NCBI GenBank assembly: GCA_950295325.1
Contig: OX485803.1
Coordinates: 35,539,554 to 35,603,553, forward strand
Origin: Polytrichum commune
Taxonomy: Eukaryota > Streptophyta > Polytrichopsida > Polytrichales > Polytrichaceae
Direction: 5' to 3'
DNA length: 64,000 nucleotides
Shown here: in pieces, positions 1,109 to 64,000 of the stretch
Layout of the letters: every line of letters starts with the position of its first letter
Numbering within the stretch: position 1 is the first letter of the stretch
Notes under the pieces: generated by a model
Told to the model about the DNA's origin: nothing
Seen by the model: only the letters and a program-made list of their open reading frames with translations
The model's database searches: none
Program-made: the position numbers and the translations under genes

Positions 1109-1572
1109 CTCACTTAGCAATCCAACTTCAATAAACCCCCCTAGTTGACTGTAAAAGGTTCTTTCCTTAAGATGACTTTGAGAATTTCTGTAGATTGCAT
1201 ATAATTTTTTTTGTACTTGGTCGGCTCTTCATAGATTCGCTAATCTATGGAATTGTTTTGAAAAATTTCCAAGCTACTTAACCTTCTTGAAATAGGAAAA
1301 AGTTTATAAAAAGTGTCACTCTAAAGCCACATTATCTTATGACCAATTATGCCCAAAAATCTATGTAGACGTTGCAACCAAAGCTACAATAACTCACCAT
1401 TAAGATCATAAAATGCACGACCCCAAAGATTTTGATTGCATCTCACTAGACTAAGTTGGGGTCTTTATTGCTAATTCCTTGAGAAGAAACTTTTTGACTG
1501 CATTTTCCCTTTACGAGGTGAGATACAATGTGGCGACCTAGTCCAAAAAAAAAGAGTAAGCTTGACATGATA
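1109..1572. other. Intergenic, nothing recognised
   Basis: AT-rich DNA with no open frame of note, no RNA gene and no repeat partner that I could see within the window. Confidence 0.5.
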
Positions 1573-1612
1573 CATCCATCCATCTATCCATCTACCTACC
1601 TACCTACCTACA
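1573..1612 (+). repeat. Tetranucleotide microsatellite (atcc/tacc)
   Basis: A run of 'atcc' and 'tacc' units with a few interruptions, immediately before repeat R1 copy A. Confidence 0.9.
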
Positions 1613-1615
1613 TTA

Positions 1616-1768
1616 GAGGCGTCTATTCTTGATCGAGACCCCATCGGCAATCTACAGGGTGCTGGAAATTTGATTAGGCTGGGATTGAATTCTAATCATG
1701 CCAGAACCAATAGTGCCATGACACATGTCATGATCATGAGTGTTGAAGTGAAGAGGAATGAGCAATCA
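1616..1768 (+). repeat. Dispersed repeat family R1, copy A
   Basis: About 150 bp that recur in the same orientation at 5811-5960. The shared core is 'gaccccatcggcaatct', followed by 'gctgggattgaatt' and 'ccatgacacatgtc'. It is non-coding. It may be a SINE or MITE fragment, but I found no clear termini or RNA polymerase III boxes. Confidence 0.7.
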
Positions 1769-1989
1769 TGACAAACTCTAAACATTGGCAATGATGATGT
1801 TGGCGTCAACTTTTGACCTCCAAAATTAACATTTTATTTTTTATTTTTTTTGAGACAGAAGGCCGACAAGCCAACGCCAAAGCACAGTTCACAATACTTT
1901 CAACTTACGGAATAAAATTACCAACTTTTTAAATTTGCAATTCTTTTTCCGATGTCTATGTTCCCTACATGGGGAAATTTGCACCGTCA

Positions 1990-3894
1990 TCTAACTTAAC
2001 TTACTTCTTCTTCTCCAGATCTAGAGGAGGAGAATCTGGCGCCTCTAAGTTACTCTATCTTCCTCGCTCGCCGTGGAGCAGCTCTATTATGTAGGCCTGG
2101 GCCCATCACTGATTAGTTTGGCTGCCCTGCCACGCCAGGAGTTGTGACCTGCCCAGCCGGCACCCCGGCCTCATCTCTCGCTCGCAACAACAATAATCAT
2201 CTCCTCGTCGCTTCTCGCCTAGCTCACCGCTGATCAGGCAAGGCAAGGCATTGCCAAGCCAACCGGAACCTTCCCCACTTGTAGCACATAAAAAGTGCTA
2301 AAAGCTTGCCACTTCCATACACTTCGTCTGTGCACTTGCGACTTGGACATAACTGAAACTTCATAGGTCCAGTTTCAAAGTTCCGGAGCTGGAGTACTTG
2401 TCTGGCTCAGGTGCAGGCTTTTGTCAGTATTGCAGCGCCGGGACTCTTCTGTGCAGGTGAAGGCTCTGTTAGAGTGGGTGGGATGGATGGATGTGGTGTC
2501 TGTCTGTTTTGGTTTTGGTGATATGGTGAGAGTAGGAATGGTATGGTGTTGAGGAGATTTGGGCTGATCAGGAGTGTGTGTTGTAGATGTTATAGCAATT
2601 GTTGGGTAGATTGGGCTATGTGAGGTTTATGTGCTCTGAAGGGGGGTCTAGGTGAGGTTTCTCTCTCTATTGTAAAGGATACCGAGTCTTAGGTTATGTT
2701 GCAGGTGCTTTTTGCAAAAAGAGAAAATTGTGTGTGTGTGTAACTTAGTCACGTTGGGTGTGATGATGTGAACATTGAGGCTGACATGGTCGGTTTGCTG
2801 GTTTCTTCTTATGCTTGCTGCGCTTCCGCAGGTGCTCCTCTGTGAGGGAGTTGGTCTGGTCTGCGTGTGAGCGGCCTTTGAAACGTACCGAAGACGGAGA
2901 GGCTCTGTCAGTCTGTGGCGAGGAAGGTACAAAGCCAATCTATATCGCATGTGCTTTGTACGATGCTACTTAGGGTTATGTTGAATGCTGTCTTTGCGTA
3001 GAGGGTGTGGTTAGGGTAGCCTTCCTTTTTGTGGAGAAAAATCTCGGTGGACAGAGGTCGTTTGCTCCGAGGTTAGCATTGCGTCCGACGTCAAACCTTC
3101 CAGAACTGTTCCTACGGATACGGCCTTGCAATGGAGCAATGACTATCTGTATCAATTAAGGAGTGATCCCCGGATCATTGCGGACTGCAGTATTTGTTTT
3201 TGCCATGGCATCGTCATATGCCAGAGGGATGTGTTATGAAATGATATTTCTAAGGGGTTCTTGAGAATTTTCACAAATAGAAGCTGTGAGCTGGCACCAT
3301 CAAAGGATCGGATCCTCACATCCTTCTCAGTTTAAAATAGCATAAAATATGTTTGGTCTGACAAACATAATGTCGAAGATTGGAAGGAAGAGCTTTTAAA
3401 ATTGATCATTACACTAAAAAAATCTTATTGTTTTGATGATGATTGGTTGAGACTACGGATACTGTAGGTTGGCAAGCATGATATGATCTTGAAATAAGGA
3501 ATCTGAAATGCTCAAGGACAACCCAAGAAACTTGATTGCTGTTAAACCTTTCACAAACAATCAGAACCTGAATAAACAACTTCATTCAAATAACAGAGAA
3601 CTACCTCTGTAGCAAAACCCACAAATTAATCTACAGATGCCCATGATGCTTTGTTCTTGTGCAGGAATTTGCAGGCTGTTGAACCCCTCCTGATTGTAAT
3701 GTATCAACAAAAGTTGGTGAAGGACAACTCAGGATTTCTTCAATTTTTTCAAACACGAACATCATCATTTCAAGGGTAAATACTGTGTCTCAAGCAGGAT
3801 TTATTAGTGGCGAGCAAGTGACCTATGTTGGAGTCAACTAAAAATATATTTTGCAAAACTATCATTGAGAGAGGATTACTTTTCTGCGACCAAG
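1990..3894 (+). promoter_or_regulatory. Probable promoter and 5' leader region of the FkbM-like gene
   Basis: From about 2030 to 2260 the DNA is markedly more GC-rich than its surroundings, and 'cataaaaagt' at about 2287 is a possible TATA-like box. There is no credible coding exon between here and the start codon at 3895. A 5' UTR intron (for example a donor near 2458 and an acceptor near 3664) is possible but is only inference. The open frame on the minus strand at 2648-2950 has no recognisable content. Confidence 0.35.
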
Positions 3895-4923
3895 ATGACC
3901 TACCTCAATGAGTTGCAGTCTGTGAGCCGCAACATCTCGCCTCGAGTACTCTATTTTGTGATTGCAGTTCTCCTCAGTTACATTCTCATTGACTTTTCGC
4001 TCCACCATTCAGGGAACTCCCAGTGTGCCGAATTAGTGTTTGATGCTGCAAGAGCAAAATCCGAGAAAGCTAAAGTGGACACTGAGGCAGAGAATGCTGC
4101 AAAAGAAGATGCCATTTGTGGCTCCGTGCTTGGCCACCTCACGGCCGTGCCTCGTGACCTGGAGATGGATGCATGGAGCCAAATGAAATGGATTGGTTCA
4201 CCCGCGCGGTGCAAGGTGAAAGGCCAATTAATTGAAAGCTTAGATGTGCCCAACAACTTCCGGCGAGGTTTTGCGCTACGATTTGTGCACGACGTTGAAG
4301 ACAAGACGCACGTGCTTCCGTGGCTCTATGGGAGTAAAGTCGACCTAAATGTGCCGAAACGGCGTGTTTACCTTGACCTTGGTGCCAACAATTTGCACAC
4401 GAGTGTTGAGTGGTTTTTGCGCATGTACCCGTGCGATTTCACTGAAGTGCATGCATTCGAGGTGAACGTCGGATGGTTTGTCATCCCGGAACAAGGGTTT
4501 AATGAGAGCGGGAATTGGCGCCCTGAAAACCCACATGCTGTGCGTGTGAATGCGGTCCCGGGCATCCCAGACTGGATGCTCAAACGCATCAAACTCTACA
4601 ACAAGTTTGTGAATGACTTTGACGATGAGAATACAAACTCGGTGAACATCACGCGGTTCATGACGGAAACATTGAATTTGAAGGCAAGCGATACGGTTGT
4701 GGTGAAAATGGACATCGAGGGCGCCGAATGGCCGATTTTGAAGCGATGGTTGGAGGAGCCGGGGATGGCGGACATTATCGATGAGTTGTTTGTGGAGATT
4801 CATTATCACCATCCCTCCATGCTTGCTTACCATTGGGGTAAATTTGAACACACTCGAGACGAGGCAACCAACTTGATTGCTGGCCTCCGGTCGAAAGGCT
4901 ACTTCATCCATGCGTGGCCTTGA
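3895..4923 (+). CDS. FkbM-like SAM-dependent methyltransferase, single-pass membrane protein
   Basis: An intronless 342-residue protein. I start it at the first ATG (3895); the open frame extends ten codons further upstream but has no ATG there. Residues 18-32 form one hydrophobic segment after a short N-terminus, so it is probably a type II membrane (signal-anchor) protein with its catalytic domain in the Golgi/ER lumen (inference). Residues 40-75 are rich in Ala, Lys and Glu, like a stem. The segment YLDLGANN near residue 159 resembles the SAM-binding glycine loop, EVHAFE follows as the acidic motif, and VVVKMDIEGAEW near 267-281 is the typical FkbM-family signature. FkbM-type enzymes usually O-methylate small molecules or glycans; the substrate here is unknown. 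The stop is TGA. Flanking copies of repeat R2 lie in opposite orientations about 3 kb upstream and 1.4 kb downstream. Confidence 0.85.
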   Translation: MTYLNELQSVSRNISPRVLYFVIAVLLSYILIDFSLHHSGNSQCAELVFDAARAKSEKAKVDTEAENAAKEDAICGSVLGHLTAVPRDLEMDAWSQMKWIGSPARCKVKGQLIESLDVPNNFRRGFALRFVHDVEDKTHVLPWLYGSKVDLNVPKRRVYLDLGANNLHTSVEWFLRMYPCDFTEVHAFEVNVGWFVIPEQGFNESGNWRPENPHAVRVNAVPGIPDWMLKRIKLYNKFVNDFDDENTNSVNITRFMTETLNLKASDTVVVKMDIEGAEWPILKRWLEEPGMADIIDELFVEIHYHHPSMLAYHWGKFEHTRDEATNLIAGLRSKGYFIHAWP

Positions 4924-55016: not shown

Positions 55017-57606
55017 TTGCGACCACACCAGCTCGAACGCCAAGACAAACACCAAAGCCACCAGATCTACATCCCGACCCGTCACCCCCTAGCCAACGAC
55101 ATTGAAGAGCAGCAACAGCAGACGGAAACTCCGCCAAATCAGCTAACCTCCCCCTCACCCTCCTCTCATTTCACTGTTTGCAATCACATTTTTTTCCTAG
55201 AATTATGCATTTCTAGCACTCATCACCCATGTTGTAGAGTGCACAAGTACATTTCTTGCACCTGCACTTGCTTTGTCTCTTGCACCTGCATTTGCCCTGT
55301 CTGTTGCACAGGACACATAGATTTGTGCCTACACAACATCTGGACCCACGCACCCACAACTCGTCAACCGAGCGCTAAAAGACATCACCGGACTCACCAC
55401 TCAGGTAAGCCCACTAACCCTCCAACTCGGTCATTCAATCCTGTTTTCATAGATAGGCAATCTCCTTGCGAAAAAACGATAAATAAAAAACCAAAACACA
55501 CAAACCTAAGTCAAAAGTCCCCCTATACAGCCCCACAGCAAGAGCTTGTGGAAAGGGAGACTAAGACATCAGAAATTAACAAATTAAGAACTACCAAACT
55601 TCCCTACAGAAACCATCCTTTGCCTCCTTTGAAACTGCAGGGAACACTAAGCAATATGACTTCAACACACACACGCTCGGCTAGCCGCTCACACAGCAGC
55701 GACGTTGATCACATGGAAATGGACACATCACCACAAGGCCAGAAGCGACCGCAATCTGATAAGAACAGATAAGGGGATGAGCCTACACCAAAGGGACACA
55801 AAAGGGCACAAACCACAAGGAGCAGGGAAGAAGTGGAAAAAATGCCACAATCGCAGAAGAGGGCCCAGAAATCAAGAAGTAGCAGCGACGAGGACACATC
55901 ACCACGGTCACTGAAGAAACAACACTCCAACAAGCACAAGGCGGGTGACTCGAGCAGCAGCCAAAAGAGCAAACAACATAAGAGCTCCAAGGAAGGCGGG
56001 AGCGGCACCAAAGAAGGAAAAAACTTGAAAGATGGAAGCGGCTCTAAAGGAGGGAGCAGCTCCAAGGATCCCACAACAGACAACTCGGAGGAACAATACA
56101 CCACACCGAAGTACTAGAACTGGTGGCTCGGATTCGACACTATGGAGAAAAAGGCGCTAGCAAACAAAATCCCTGAATGCTTCATCCCAGAGCCCATCTC
56201 CAAAGTCACGAAGAAGGGATTCTTAGAAATCGAAGTTGAAGAGCTACTCAAATCGGTACATTCGTACCCCCATGTCCCTCAAATTCTATACCCTACAGCT
56301 AGACCCGATGGTCTTGACGGTCAACATTATAACCTTACACAACTTCCCTTTGACATAGCAACAGACCCAGAAACAAAATTATCCTTAGACTACCACGTGG
56401 CCATACATTTCAACCGTCCAACCAAACAGTTCACCCATGGAGAAATTTTAGGGTTGACCCAAGAACGCCTTAGAGAAATGAAAATTCCTCTAGGTACAAA
56501 AATCGCAGAACCTATCACCATACTATGCATGAACGGCTCCGCAAGACACTGGTCCGGCACCATCAAACTACACCTCAAACATCCAGATATAGACGGTATC
56601 ACCTTGCTATCAGGGATACGGCCTTTCATCCTCAAATTAGACAACGACACACCAATGTTGGGAAAAGTTTGCAAAGGGTACAATGCGGTAGCTAGAAACA
56701 ATATGTTATCAGTCAAAATTGCCAGCCCCTCACTAGCAAACGTAGAAGGACACGAACTACACCTTGAGGTTCTCATAGATGGCTTCAAAAGAAAACATGA
56801 CTACGAAATAACCAATGTCCAAAAGAATTCTACAGATACTTGGGCCTGGCTACTCGCACCAACCCTGCAACAGGTTGAGAAGCTCGTCAAGTATTACGTT
56901 CCGTTTCGCAACGAGCTGATCCACACCATTGTCAAAAAAGGTGAGAAACTTAGTGTGACACAACTCGCAAAAAAGAATTGTCTTATGCTTATTCTTCACA
57001 ACCTGCAGCTTACGAAGAACGCAGATGAGACACTACATGAAATCAAGGAGCTGATGGGAGACAAGAACATCGCCTCCTATTACTTCAGCAAGTTGAAGGG
57101 CAAGCTGCACACCGGCTCCGTGAACATAGAATGCCTAAACCCGACGGTGTACCACCAATACGTCAACAAGACCTTCAAATTTTTTGACCAACATGTGTCT
57201 TTCACACCGCACCCACGTAGCCTGGTAGGAAGTCTGCCACCTTCGAAGGAGGAGAAGGAAAAACTCGGGTTTTGCGACATCAACACCGCCATGGCCAACA
57301 CTCTAGCGGCAATTCAGAACGCACCACCGAGCAAAGACAGTCTAGGAAAGGAGGAGATCATCGCAAGGTAACCGGAAACTAAAAACAGAAATCCAAGGTG
57401 AAATGAAGACCATGAAGAACGCCATAATCAAGGAAAGCAGTGAGTATGCACTCACCCTCAATGAAAACATGTAGGCTGTCGTAGCCCAACAGATGCATGA
57501 ATTCTCTATCGGCATTACTAAAGCCTTGACCACACACCCGCGGCCACCAGTCCTCGCACTGCCACCTCCTCCGGGAAAAGACCAGGGCAAAAAGACCCCA
57601 CAATGA
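55017..57606 (+). pseudogene. Retrotransposon ORF1-like protein, interrupted
   Basis: One reading frame runs from 55017 to 57371, broken by TAA at 55770-55772 and TAG at 56115-56117. After a shift near 57370 a helical tail continues in the next frame to 57606, with another TAG near 57472. The N-terminal part is Pro/Thr/His-rich and includes a Cys-rich stretch around 55230-55330. The middle (55833-56117) is Ser/Lys-rich and probably disordered, as in nucleic-acid-binding ORF1 proteins. The 409-codon block at 56142-57371 is undamaged and has mixed, folded-looking composition. I do not recognise its domain; there is no CCHC knuckle. Its position before the endonuclease/reverse-transcriptase unit makes it the ORF1 equivalent. 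Confidence 0.7.
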
Positions 57607-58052
57607 CACTGTAGCCTCCTAAAAATCACCACAAACCATCGCAAAGCATATCCAGGGAGAATTATAAAATAAAAAAGTATCTAGTGATGCTCATGCCCCC
57701 AAAAGTATCCATAGATACACACAAAAGAAAGAAAGAAAAAAGAAAAAAGATAAAACGAAAGAAAATAAAACATAATAAAATTACAAAAAAGATCAAGAAA
57801 ATCAGTATTAACTTAACAACAAAATCCCCAAAAACAAACCAAAAAAATCTCAAACCACAAAAACCGCAAAAAAACATCAAATCAAACAACAAATCCCCAC
57901 CAAATAACCTAACAAGGGCTCGGCCTACCGGCCTCGCCCAAGAAAAACCCTCAAAGGTAAATACACACCAAGAAACCAAAAAAGAAGCCAAACACAACAA
58001 ACATAATAAGAAAACACAATCATTACAAATAATATGTTGGGATATTGACAAA

Positions 58053-58199
58053 TTTGGGAACCCCAAGAACCCCAAGTTCAAACTGGGGTTATTTGGGAAC
58101 CCCAAGAACCCCAAAATCAAACTGGGGTTATTTGGGAACCCCAAGAACCCCAAAATCAAACTGGGGTTATTTGGGAACCCCAAGAACCCCAAGTTCAAA
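58053..58199 (+). repeat. 39-bp in-frame tandem repeat, about 3.8 units
   Basis: Units of 39 bp encode the 13-residue repeat FGNPKNPKIKLGL (or KFKLGL) within the 57684-58502 frame. Because 39 is a multiple of three, the frame survives changes in copy number. Each unit contains 'aacccca' and 'tggggtt' arms that can pair, so the RNA could form a row of hairpins. Confidence 0.95.
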
Positions 58200-58349
58200 A
58201 CAAACAAATACCAACAAACATACAGAAAAAACACACACCATAATAAAAATAAAACAAAACTCAATATTAATAGCACAAAGTACAAAGTAAAATCCAATAT
58301 TTTTAAAAATAGAATATTTCTTCTACACCTTTTACTTTTACATAATGGA

Positions 58350-58373
58350 GATAATGAAACTAACCCGGGACCC
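58350..58373 (+). other. 2A-like motif, degenerate (DNETNPGP)
   Basis: Reads LLLLHNG-DNETNPGP in the 57684-58502 frame. The NPGP core and the Asp and Glu positions fit the 2A consensus D(V/I)ExNPGP, but Asn replaces Val/Ile. In 2A peptides the ribosome skips the bond before the last Pro. Activity of this variant is doubtful. Confidence 0.7.
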
Positions 58374-58617
58374 ATACCCAATAACCTTCAAATATTCTAC
58401 TATACCTACATTCTACGAATACTCGCCAAAACTTATACCAAACAAAATACCTATATACAAATACTATATTGTATTATTATATCAAAAAATGCAATAAAAT
58501 AAAATTTAAACACAAACAAAAGCTCCTCAAAATAAAAAAACATACCACACAACATCAATAAATATCATACAACTACACCTCAAAAGAAAACTAAACAAAA
58601 CACCTCAAGGAAACTAA

Positions 58618-60569
58618 AACATAAAAAGCTATTCAAAAAGAATATTAGGAGAAATAAGCACCAACAATGGACTCGGCCTACCGGCCTCGCCCAAAACAAA
58701 CAAAAAAGTAAAAGGAAATATATCCCAAAAAACTCTCCAAAATAATAATAAATTCTTACATAAAATATTATTATTATGCGGGGATATTGAAACCAACCCT
58801 GGACCCATGCCCGACTTACTAAAAACACATCCACCCACACACAAAAGAAGATGCAAAACATACTTTATACCAAGCACGATTAAATTACAACCAGAATACC
58901 AACATCTAGCAAAACAATTCTCACCTATCCTAAACATAACACACCCCAATCATACGGAAGCTAGTAACAACTATCCACATATATCAAAATATATATACCA
59001 AAACCAACATCACCCATCACCAAGAATACTATATGCACTTATCACCACTATCAGCCCATCAAAAGAAACATGTAACCAACTTCTAATACAAATCCCAGAC
59101 CATGACTGGACAACAATACTACTAGAAAAAATGGCCATACTACAAAACCCACCTGAAAGACATATCCCAATTATACATCCATACATAGAATTCACAAATA
59201 AAAATCAAAACTTAATAAATCCACCTAATACCATACACAAAGAAATATATAATTTTATACATCACCACAACGAACCAATAACTCTCCAAACCATGATTAA
59301 TAAATTTCCATTTCTCCCTACAAACCTATTAGAAGAAACCCTAAAAATACATGAACCACTACATGAATATACACATCCTCCACCACTCCCAAATGTACCC
59401 CCAATACAACCACAAGTAATAAATACAACAAACCATAATACAAGATTTATAACATGGAATGCTTCATCACTAAATACAGCCCTTCCAAATTTACACGAAC
59501 TAATCTCCAATACACCCGTCGAACCCGCTATCATCACAATACAAGAAACTAAATTAACCGCAACAAAATCCACCAAATACATACAAAATCTATTCCCAAA
59601 ATACAAATTAATTTTTAACAACACACATGCCCTAACCAGATGTATGCAACAAAGAATGCCATACATACCCGCTAGAGGAGGTCTCCTCACACTCATAAAT
59701 AAAATATACGCATATCCCGGCAATATCCCGGCAATATCACCAAAATCCCAACCCCCAAAGAAATATCACCCTACCTACAAATACTAAAAATTGACAATAA
59801 ACCACTACAAACTTGGCTAATTATCCACATGTATATGCCGTCACATGCAAATGACATAAAATATATACCAATGATCCAACTAAACATAACACAACAAATC
59901 AATGCACACCCAAATAGTACACATATACTATGTGGTGACTTTAATAGAGATATAGCACTTATAGGACAACAAAATGAAACCGACACAACCCCACCACAAA
60001 CAGAAGACATAGAATGGAGAACATTCACAAATAATCTCCAACTAGAATACATCCCAACAAATTGCCCATTCACCAGACAAGGGGGACAAAACTTTAACCA
60101 AACCAGTCTAATAGATGGATACTACATTAAAACACCAGATAATACTTTAGACACATCAACTACAAATAATGACCATAACCTTAATTCGGACCACTTGCCA
60201 GTAACCCTACACATACCACCAAACTCCTTACTAGCAAGACCCATACCAATAACAAATACAACAACGAGAATTCTAAACCCCATACCACAAGAAAATATTG
60301 AAAAATTCAAAATAAAATATTTTGAAGAAAATGCTCTGCAAATAAATGAACTCACCACAATACTATCAAACGATCAACTAACAAACGACCAATGGCAAAT
60401 ATCTTGCTCAAAACTAGAGCACATGATACAAAAAATAACAGATAAAATTCAAGATACTTGTAGTGCACCACCGCTCCCAACATTAACAAACCGTACTTCG
60501 CAACAAGGGGGTTTCCTACCAAGAAAACTACAAAAAACATGGAAAAACATGTATCTACCTACCATTTAA
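58618..60569 (+). pseudogene. Retrotransposon ORF2 N-terminal part with APE-type endonuclease, frameshifted
   Basis: The open frame runs from 58618, through the 2A-like motif, to a stop at 59787; the product after 2A would begin at the Pro before Met 58807. About 200 residues of unassigned sequence precede the endonuclease. Endonuclease motifs: ITWNASSL (about 59449-59472), IQETKL (about 59539-59556) and ARGGLLTL in the first frame, then GDFNRD, SLIDGYY and NSDHLPV in the next frame from about 59736 to 60200. A tandem 11-bp duplication (59714-59724/59725-59735) accounts exactly for the frame change. The domain nicks target DNA for target-primed reverse transcription. A further frame change lies near 60570-60600, before the reverse transcriptase. 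Confidence 0.85.
58783..58806 (+). other. Canonical 2A-like ribosome-skipping motif (DIETNPGP)
   Basis: Reads LLLCG-DIETNPGP, an exact match to the D(V/I)ExNPGP consensus, with the Leu-rich, helix-forming run upstream that active 2A sequences have. The next codon is ATG (58807). 2A-like sequences are known at the N-terminus of ORF2 in APE-type non-LTR retrotransposons of trypanosomes and several animals. Here it would release the endonuclease/reverse-transcriptase protein from a leader. Confidence 0.85.
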
Positions 60570-60595
60570 TTAAAAAAACAAAAATATAACAAAAA

Positions 60596-63500
60596 ATATA
60601 CAAAATTGGCAACACACATCCAATAATTGAAGAATTAAAAACCCACACAAATGTCACCATCCCACCACTTCCAACCCAAGAAAATAATCAACAAGAATGG
60701 ATCCAATCATTAGCAGAAATAGCCAAAACAACAAAAATACAAGTACGTAAAATCACCACAAAATATACCCAAAGTTGTATAAAAAAGGCAATAACAAAAT
60801 ACAGACAATTATACGAAAAAAGCCCAAAGAAAATAAACAAAAAAGTTTTCAAAAATCAAGAAACGCCACCATTAGACTGCATTTTGGATAGAAACAACAA
60901 CATACTAACCAGCCCAGAAGACATAGCAAATGAAATCCACATACAACAATCAATCAGCAATAGGCCTACAGTACCAACATACTACTACCAACCCGAATAC
61001 CCATCACAATGTACTTGCGGAGTTAGACAATACCCATGGCACGACCTTGATGGATTTGTAATAAAAAGAAGAGGAAACCCACAAATCCCACTCTATAAAT
61101 ATTTTGATAAAAAAACATATGATATGTGTCTCAAACACCTATCTAACAACAAAACACCAGGCCCAGACAAAATTCCCAATTCAATACTAAAAAATATGCC
61201 CGAAAGCTTCCATAAACTACTCTTTTTATTTTTCACTCATTGTTACAAACAAAAACAAATCCCAGCCTCATGGAAAATAAGTCTAGCTATATTATTTTAC
61301 AAAAAAGAAGATCCCGCACAACTGCCGAACCATAGACCAATTGCACTTGCAAATACAATATACAAATTCTTCACCAGTACATTAACATACATATTATCAG
61401 CATACGGTGAAAATCACCAAATTCTACACGATAGTCAAGAAAGATTCACAGCAGAAAGAAGTACAACAAGACAACTACAACTCCTCATCGCAGCACTAGA
61501 GGATGCAAAATTTACAAATCAAAACATGTATCTACTATATATAGACTTCAAAAATGCATTTGGCTCATTAGATCACGCAAGACTCTTAGCTATAATAAAA
61601 GACCTTGGATACCCGGAAGATGCAATAATACTAGTAGAAAATATATACTCCCATTCAAACACCATATTTATTGGAGAACACTTTGGCAAAACACAACCAA
61701 TACCGATTCAAAGAGGAACCATATAAGGAGACACACTTAGTCCATATATATTTTTAATTTTTCTATAACCACTCTTGAGATGGTTACAAAGAGGAGAAAA
61801 TGGATACACATTTGGTACATCAAAAAGAAAAATCAACTCTGCAGCATACGCAGACGACCTAGCAGCTATATCAAATAATACAAAATCACTACAAATACAA
61901 CTAAACAAAATTGACAAATTTTGTGAATGGGCAGACATGGACTTGAGAGTCACAAAATGTGTTGTCACCGGTTGCCCAAATAAAACCAAAATGCAACCAA
62001 ACAAATTTAAATCCTACATGACAACCCAAAAAATCAGTTACAAATAATAAACACTACCAGTACTCCATCAAAATGAACCTTATATTTACTTAGGCATACA
62101 ATTGGTCCCATCACTACAATGGAAGCTCCAAACACATATCACCACAACTAAAATAATCGACCAATGTAAACAACTTTCAAAATGTCCTGCCACTATCAAA
62201 CAAAAAATCAGTATGATTGACACAGTAATCAGAGCAAGCATAGCCTACAGCTTTTTTGCAGTCCCATATTCCCTACCAACTATTAAAAAACTTGACAAAA
62301 AAATTATTGCAATCCATAAAACAATATGCGGACTCCCTAAAAGCACTGCAAACATAATAACTCAACTCCCGCATAATTTATTTGGATTAGAAGCCTTCTC
62401 TCTAAAAAATGCTTACCTTAGATGCATTGGTGAACAACTCCGAAATGCACTTAACGACAAAGGACGATTAGGAAAAATATATAAAGGATTAATACAACAC
62501 ATACTTGCTAAAGCCGGTGGTGCCGAAGACATCCCAAGAATTAAACACCAAGACTGCATTAGATCACCGACAACACGAACATTATTTCTTATGAAGACAG
62601 CCGGTGGTGTACACCTAAAAAACACAGAAGAAAACTTTCAACTTCACACAACCGAACTAGAACAAGAATGGAGATCTACAGCCATAACTGAACTTCCACA
62701 CTTAGACCCACAACTCTCTATTAAACTATTGTACAAACTATTGGCACACAATATCTACAAAATAAAACATATCACCCTCCCCAACGGTACAAACCTAATG
62801 TCACCAGAAGAATTTAAAATATACTGCCAAAACCCAACTAAATTAGAAAAAAATGCACTAAACATAGCAGAACAACTTTTCTGTAAACCAAAATGCGCCC
62901 AAGAGTGCCCAAACACATGCCAGATACACTCACCACCCCGTACACTAAAAGAAAAATATAAAATATACAACCACATAATACTACCAAGAAAACCAATAAA
63001 CCCCCTACAACTCCCTCAACCACTACAACCACAACAACCAACCCCACCACAAACTATAAAAAACGATCCTATGAGATTTCCTATCCGCACAATATTAAAC
63101 CACAAAACAATTACAACAAAAGACAAATATAAAATATCAAAAAAATATAACACCTATTTATGCCAATGGATAGACTCAAACCACATAGCATACAACAAAT
63201 GGATGGCACAACGTGAATTATTTCCACCAAACCTACCAACCATAATGCACCACAATCTAAACCTACTTACAACATACTACACAGACTATCAGAATAGACA
63301 TTATCAAAATATCATAAACACACATTTTACACCCGAACAAAATAGAGACACAAGATACATCCCACCTCCAACAATAATCCCCTGCGTTAAAACATCCACA
63401 ACTGAATGTAACCCAGAAAAAGATATAAACACAAACAAATGCACCATTCAAACACAAAATGACAAAACCCACATATATAACGACACATGTAAATATATCA

Positions 63501-63604
63501 CCACCATTCCGACTACAAGAATAAAATGGCTATGGCAACAATATAACAACAACAAATACAACATCCATAGATTAATACCTGCTATACAAACATTTGAAAC
63601 ATAA
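60596..63604 (+). pseudogene. Retrotransposon reverse transcriptase with four TAA codons
   Basis: One frame throughout, interrupted by TAA at 61724-61726, 61766-61768, 62045-62047 and 62048-62050. Motifs in order: NNKTPGPDKIPN (about 61147-61182), the SWK...NHRPIAL block, LYIDFKNAF (catalytic Asp, near 61540), RGTI-stop-GDTLSP (the usual Gln/Glu position is the stop), and the catalytic YADD at 61847-61858. The thumb/connection region follows, and then a Cys-containing stretch (CKPKCAQECPNTCQIH, about 62881-62928) that could be a small metal-binding site. The enzyme would copy element RNA at the nicked target. The nonsense codons make this copy inactive. Confidence 0.9.
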
Positions 63605-64000
63605 GTAGTTTGGTTATACCAAAGATACGAACACAAAACCACAAAAAGAACTCAATAAAAACACCACATCATACCATTCCATCCAACATTTTAGACACAC
63701 TAATTACAACATTTAATATAACACACTCATACTTTTCCTCACCAATAACATGCTCCACAAAAATCACACAATTCTACTCAACCTTCACTAGAGACAAGAT
63801 TTTTGGCTCACTTGGAACAGCCTTTCAACATAAATGGAAAGGTATTGGATATGCCCACCCAAACGACGCTGAAACATCACAACAAGCAATACATTGGGCT
63901 CGGCTAGCAGCAAAACAAGACCCAGAAACTATCACCATTCTGGCAATACCAGACACCAACTGGTACCAAAATTTATCACCATTCAATGGGCCCTTTCCAG
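63605..64000 (+). pseudogene. Downstream module resembling a PCIF1-type methyltransferase domain (partial)
   Basis: In the frame shifted relative to the reverse transcriptase, open from 63601 to the window end, the sequence contains SYFSSPITC, then FGSLGTAF, WKGIGYAHPND, AIHWARLAAK and ILAIPDTNWY. Order and spacing resemble the C-terminal domain of PCIF1/CAPAM (FASPLNC...FGSRGP...GSFEANPPF...FIPEW), the cap-adjacent adenosine N6-methyltransferase. The NPPF catalytic motif is replaced by HPND here, so a methyltransferase activity is not supported. The rest of the domain is beyond the window. The similarity was judged by eye. Confidence 0.45.

Follow-up and report, generated by a model that had tools for sequence, protein, structure and literature searches.

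A 2A (StopGo) motif at a fixed place in ORF2 is likely to separate a leader from the endonuclease/reverse transcriptase (RT) polyprotein in LINEs of the Dualen/RandI type in a plant-lineage genome. The presence and position of the motif, a frame that is open through it, constraint on its amino acids and the order of the domains were observed directly in the sequences. The motif was encountered in the window, the 64 000 nucleotide stretch analysed here (contig OX485803.1:35539554-35603553), and genome searches were run over the 408 Mb assembly of seven large contigs.

The 2A motif of the window copy

The open frame 58618-59787 (+), the translation of which contains NKFLHKILLLCGDIETNPGPMPDLL, carries FLHKILLLCG-DIETNPGP (58753-58806, +) followed by ATG at the head of the APE endonuclease/RT frame. 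The motif stretch of this frame is FLHKILLLCGDIETNPGPMPDLL, in which the core octapeptide occupies 58783-58806; the codons run from GGG (58780-58782) and GAT (58783-58785) to CCC (58804-58806) and ATG (58807-58809). The first-pass annotation had described a Leu run, Cys-Gly, DIETNPGP and Met at 58750-58830, and all of these lie within that interval with the letters given. Its view that a canonical 2A core heads the endonuclease/RT polyprotein of a plant-lineage LINE is likewise supported. Features of the window copy are given below, where clade A is the clade of the window copy and clade B is a divergent second clade.

56118-57371 (+): ORF1 remnant, an open frame with no Pfam match, placed like the separate ORF1 of loci L083-L085
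57920-57938 (+): 19-base GC-rich motif TCGGCCTACCGGCCTCGCC, copy 1, a possible hairpin with flanking GGGC/GCCC (57916-57939)
58350-58373 (+): second, degenerate 2A-like octapeptide, DNETNPGP, in a different frame (57615-58502)
58618-58782 (+): in-frame leader remnant ahead of the 2A, with no Met; a stop just before 58618 closes the frame
58673-58691 (+): the same 19-base motif, copy 2
58753-58782 (+): upstream 2A context FLHKILLLCG, of an L-rich type ending in CG, likened to the L-rich viral class in the passages of PMC12846837
58783-58806 (+): 2A/StopGo core octapeptide DIETNPGP, with the predicted skipped bond between Gly (58801-58803) and Pro (58804-58806)
58807-58809 (+): ATG directly after NPGP; Met is found here in 79 of 80 clade-A and 1 of 39 clade-B copies
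58807-59445 (+): conserved region between the 2A and the endonuclease, with no Pfam match and a poor structure model (pLDDT 47)
59817-60203 (+): part of the APE-type endonuclease (PF14529, Exo_endo_phos_2); the domain begins earlier, in frame 58618-59787
61304-61669 (+): first part of the reverse transcriptase (PF00078), which resumes at 61829-61972 in another frame
63649-63852 (+): PCIF1_WW-like domain (PF12237, Pfam)

The window copy is a decayed, dead relic. Its ORF2 is split into 58618-59787, 59703-60569, 60590-61726, 61769-62047, 62051-63604 and 63598 onward, and continues beyond the end of the window (locus L086); its ORF1 probably extends to about 57606 in another frame. The frame carrying the 2A opens 54 codons ahead of the Gly, with no Met between the preceding stop and the 2A, therefore the motif is not translatable in this copy from an in-frame AUG.

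Chance occurrence of the motif was ruled out by genome-wide counts. The DIETNPGP pattern has 66 exact matches and the GDIExNPGP pattern (GGNGAYATHGARNNNAAYCCNGGNCC) has 255 (135 + 120), versus 0 for the reversed control in both cases; the 2A motif at the window site is far above chance.

Other sequences resembling 2A were seen upstream. The degenerate motif (GDNETNPGP, 58347-58373) sits 433 bases ahead of the window 2A in a different frame. The leader also holds a 39-base tandem repeat of 3.8 copies (58052-58199), the units of which resemble GLFGNPKNPKIK, and a WDID-FGNP stretch that precedes the first unit resembles a third, decayed 2A.

Constraint on the motif and on the leader

A search with the 389-residue frame gave 1107 first-look candidates and, from these, 106 scored homologues, including the window. 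The window and 80 other copies out of the 106 were inspected at the expected place as the clade-A sample. A motif was taken as recognisable with at least 7 of 10 residues; all frames were considered up to 120 bases from the expected place, and the best score was used. By this measure it was present in 80 of the 81 copies. The first-pass annotation had asked whether other copies keep the motif at this place or lack it; within the window clade they keep it. The one exception (L042, motif score 3/10), which was excluded from all counts with n=80, has an exact DIETNPGP 969 bases before the expected place on the same strand.

The core known from the literature, (D/G/C/N)(V/I)ExNPGP, is exact in the window copy and intact in 65 of the 80 clade-A copies, and NPGP is kept in 70. 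A stricter core, which gives the different figure of 64/81 because D is demanded at p12, is intact in 45 of the 53 copies whose flanks lack stops and in 19 of the remaining 27. Among the 80 copies there are three with p16 = H, five with p14 = K and one with a stop at p14; L052 and L075 carry the p16 = H variant as GDIEPHPGP. The 2A contexts include LLLLCGDIETNPGP and CGDIEPNPGP, and the commonest hexapeptides, compared by eye with the L-rich class, are ALLQCG, ELLKCG, LLLLSG and LLLLCG. This L-rich hexapeptide at the end of the leader, ending in (S/C/G)G before the D, resembles the L-rich viral class by analogy. A further 38 DIETNPGP sites lie away from the expected place in the homologues; 11 were inspected and 10 stand in a recognisable ORF2 context, L097 being the one without a clear ORF2 context.

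The motif is under constraint at the amino-acid level at its fixed place in ORF2. Its Gly, Asp, Ile, Asn and Pro codons vary synonymously (codon table of 69 distinct sequences). Over a motif stretch of 15 codons from -6, pN/pS is 0.28, 0.22 and 0.28 in three divergence classes, versus 1.29-3.61 in the other two frames, based on stop-free copies alone (53 or 52 of 80) and on pairs that are not independent. For the youngest pairs (pS <0.05) the motif ratio is 0.62 and the other frames have 2.71 and 0.74, thus recent copies show little selection. In the region behind the motif pN/pS is 0.22-0.41, and the constraint on the motif is equal or stronger.

The frame is also kept open upstream. In the last 300 nt before the motif, the 80 copies together have 70 in-frame stops versus 501 and 563 in the other frames, and 55 of the 80 are stop-free in frame, compared with none in either other frame. 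The stretch before those 300 nt has 262 in-frame stops versus 572 and 595, and the 39 clade-B copies have 17 before the motif versus 220 and 175. Three long-open copies (L083-L085) have 582, 580 and 281 codons ahead of NPGP, after a separate ORF1. Across copies, the motif is therefore in frame between translated parts, as it is not in the window copy. Leader pN/pS, calculated over the last 94 codons before the 15-codon motif stretch, is near neutral at 0.69-0.75 in frame and is 0.81-1.26 in the other frames (diverged pairs). Taken together, the open frame and the near-neutral ratio indicate that the leader appears to be translated, with a weakly constrained protein.

The depth of the motif within this frame bears on a reading in which a signal-like peptide at the N terminus precedes the 2A, and the 2A sends the two parts of the product to different cell compartments. 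Such a 2A-dependent split is described for sea urchin NLR proteins in the passages of PMC4981915, and there too a Leu-rich stretch adjoins the N-terminal 2As, as it does here. In the long-open copies, however, the motif is 281-582 codons inside the frame. The Leu run would be N-terminal only with a translation start shortly ahead of it, and this reading is considered highly improbable.

The first in-frame ORF2 ATG is approximately 105 nt after the ORF1 stop in L083 and approximately 123 nt after it in L085. In L084 (1372-1379) it precedes the ORF1 stop by 2 nt (ATGACTAG), which is reminiscent of termination-reinitiation. Fusion of ORF1 and ORF2 by frameshifting was considered and dropped, since the length of the overlap and the frame relation differ among these three copies and no common frameshift is supported.

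The 19-mer noted in the window (TCGGCCTACCGGCCTCGCC) has 287 exact places in the genome versus 0 for the control, in surroundings of A/C-rich leader. With up to 3 mismatches, it is found ahead of the 2A in 73 of 83 sequences. Relative to the 2A, its 96 sites are divided 57/25/14 by frame, where 3 sites are doubled because two copies are counted twice among the 83 sequences (L083/L027 and L085/L071); in addition, L050 contributes one overlapping site pair. According to frame, it is translated as SAYRPR, RPTGLA or GLPAS. Its occurrence in all three frames, with differing peptides, suggests selection on the nucleic acid, and it is possible that the 19-mer is an RNA hairpin or a DNA site. Hairpin folding of four sequences gave z -3.0 for one and about -1.8 for three. 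The outer pairs of the hairpin form in 49, 41, 34 and 21 of 56 distinct sites; the inner stem is nearly invariant, therefore support from covariation is absent. A looser core pattern of the 19-mer had no match in the clade-B 9 kb loci (L098, L099 and L100) or in the clade-B 600-base loci, and Rfam gave one sub-threshold match to a bacterial sRNA on L083-L085 (E 0.72).

Type of element and host

The first-pass annotation had assigned the element to plant L1. This identity is rejected, based on the RT scores and an R2-like C-terminal region. With RT alone as the phmmer query against PDB sequences, R2 scored 112.6 bits and human L1 64.4 bits (E 7.6e-17); the whole-ORF2 query at E 0.01 gave R2 and no L1, and the RT-alone figure is preferred. 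A control reversed this order, a 127-residue fragment of the plant L1 into which copy L101 is inserted, in the same genome, scoring 52.9 bits with L1 and at most 36.5 with R2.

The order of Pfam domains in ORF2 is APE endonuclease, RVT_1, PCIF1_WW and RNase_H. An APE match (PF03372/PF14529) precedes PF00078 in L083 and, below the cut-off, in L085, whereas L084 has none listed at E 0.1; the APE residues WN, QE, GDFN and SDH are conserved in three copies. RNase H (PF00075) is found in L083, L084 and L085. Within the C-terminal 320 residues, five copies share an invariant Cys/His cluster, which is followed by PD and, further downstream, by an E. For the predicted fold of this region (pLDDT 60), R2 proteins take the first six places among the Foldseek matches in the PDB at E 3.7e-5 to 2.5e-3, but their TM-scores are only 0.37-0.44, and a sequence profile search of the PDB with the domain gave 0 matches. 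A match to the restriction-like endonuclease (RLE) region of R2 is thus suggested by a model of modest quality.

Dualen/RandI elements combine APE, RLE and RNase H in the descriptions compared (PMC4640811, PMC3636483), and the three together point to the Dualen/RandI set; an RT nearer to R2 than to L1 is, on sequence grounds, compatible with Dualen membership. This group differs from those descriptions in having the 2A and the PCIF1_WW-like domain, neither of which is mentioned in them. With plant L1 LINEs this group has in common a plant host and the presence of APE, RT and RNase H, whereas its RT is nearer to R2 and its C-terminal region is R2-like.

In animals and trypanosomes, a further group of APE-type non-LTR elements, L1Tc among them, reportedly has a 2A. 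The likeness to these is a 2A in a LINE polyprotein with an APE endonuclease; unlike them, the elements described here have an R2-like C-terminal endonuclease, an R2-nearer RT and a long leader before the 2A.

The PCIF1_WW-like domain lies between RT and RNase H in the window (63649-63852), L083, L084 and L085, and no report of PCIF1_WW capture by a LINE was found in the literature searched. One copy (L101, 467-8308) lies within a plant L1 and has a 12-base target-site duplication and a 3′ end in TTC repeats, consistent with target-primed insertion.

A scan of IMG/VR for related RTs gave none that was confirmed. In the host genome, the LEAFY SAM domain is present at 4 places, indicating a streptophyte. 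There are also 13 dynein heavy-chain matches, 12 of them above the family cut-off, which suggests flagellated, motile sperm and hence no flowering plant; to our knowledge, flowering plants are without dyneins. The seven large contigs would be compatible with the chromosome number of a moss of the Polytrichales.

Divergent copies and the proposed mechanism

Loci L098 and L099, with 34% and 32% identity to L085 behind the motif, both have the motif and were first found through it. As choosing copies by motif was to be avoided, clade B was then searched with the region behind the L098 2A, and the best 39 of 151 matches were taken as the sample. NPGP is kept in 34 of these 39 copies. The canonical core is present in 13, or in 21 when p14 = H and p16 = H are also accepted, and p14 is E in 14, Q in 12, H in 10 and K in 3, which argues against the canonical 2A being uniform in clade B. 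The series is also in keeping with what is known of StopGo: in the passages of PMC12846837, activity in native contexts is >95% for p14 = H and for p16 = H and 26-56% for E14Q, and no activity value for p14 = K appears in them. Clade-B copies with p14 = Q or p14 = K may therefore skip poorly.

That only 14 of 39 clade-B copies have E at p14 would also be expected if the motif were a conserved protein segment that does not skip, or a leftover of an ancestral 2A that now has a different role. This is unlikely, given that the constraint on the motif is no weaker than in the coding region that follows and falls on the StopGo core codons, and that the variants in both clades include some reported as active in those passages of PMC12846837.

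It was also considered whether the Met that follows NPGP is the start of ORF2, with the upstream letters as start context. The near-constant Met of clade A (79/80) and the lack of an upstream in-frame Met in the window copy agree with such a start, but clade B keeps NPGP in 34 copies and has the Met in one, the upstream frame is kept open and the constraint is on amino acids rather than bases. A role as start-codon context is thus judged very unlikely.

The reading in which the 2A separates the leader from the polyprotein is preferred, and its steps can be proposed as follows. Ribosomes would start near the end of ORF1 and translate the long leader (281-582 codons in the three long-open copies). 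At LLLL(S/C)GDIExNPG/P, the nascent peptide would make the ribosome skip one peptide bond. The leader would be released, and the same ribosome would go on to the APE-RT-PCIF1_WW-RNaseH-RLE polyprotein, made separately and starting with Pro. The leader protein is weakly constrained, and in the clade of the window copy the leader RNA bears the conserved GC-rich motif. We infer the start site, the skipping and the function of the leader from the patterns described above.

A wider proposal is put forward tentatively, as one that may well not hold: that Dualen-type LINEs of the plant lineage shed a translated RNA leader by StopGo, the leader frame being open mainly for passage of ribosomes through the nucleic-acid motif region and the 2A removing a useless peptide, and that p14 has been exchanged among E, Q, H and K in related lineages, leading to differing strengths of skipping.

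According to the passages of PMC12846837, StopGo is common in RNA viruses and rare in cellular genomes, and has no natural use by plant viruses yet works in plant cells. The L-rich viral motifs there are classes 2/6, with motif 6 active in vitro. The elements described here share with these classes the D(V/I)ExNPGP core, the L-rich hexapeptide with (A/S/C)G before D, the position in frame between two coding parts and the tolerance of p14 = H and p16 = H. They differ in that the motif is in a plant-lineage LINE and that clade B adds p14 = Q and K.

StopGo in non-LTR elements is already known, and it is the host lineage, the type of element and the p14 series that look new. No report of 2A in plant-lineage or Dualen LINEs was found in a limited literature search, and these are not claimed to be unpublished. 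If the proposed separation of leader and polyprotein is correct, the 255 exact GDIExNPGP sites would represent natural use of StopGo in the plant lineage, and the trait would extend to LINEs with two endonucleases. The variants (p14 = H/Q/K and p16 = H) would then provide a natural series for testing the nascent-chain trigger of skipping, and native plant-lineage 2A sequences would be available for plant biotechnology.

One locus has two such motifs in a single open frame. In L121 (C2:36079000-36083499), the frame at 1456-4500 contains GDIELNPGP and GDIEINPGP 267 codons apart, an arrangement that resembles the 5′ module of one family placed before another.
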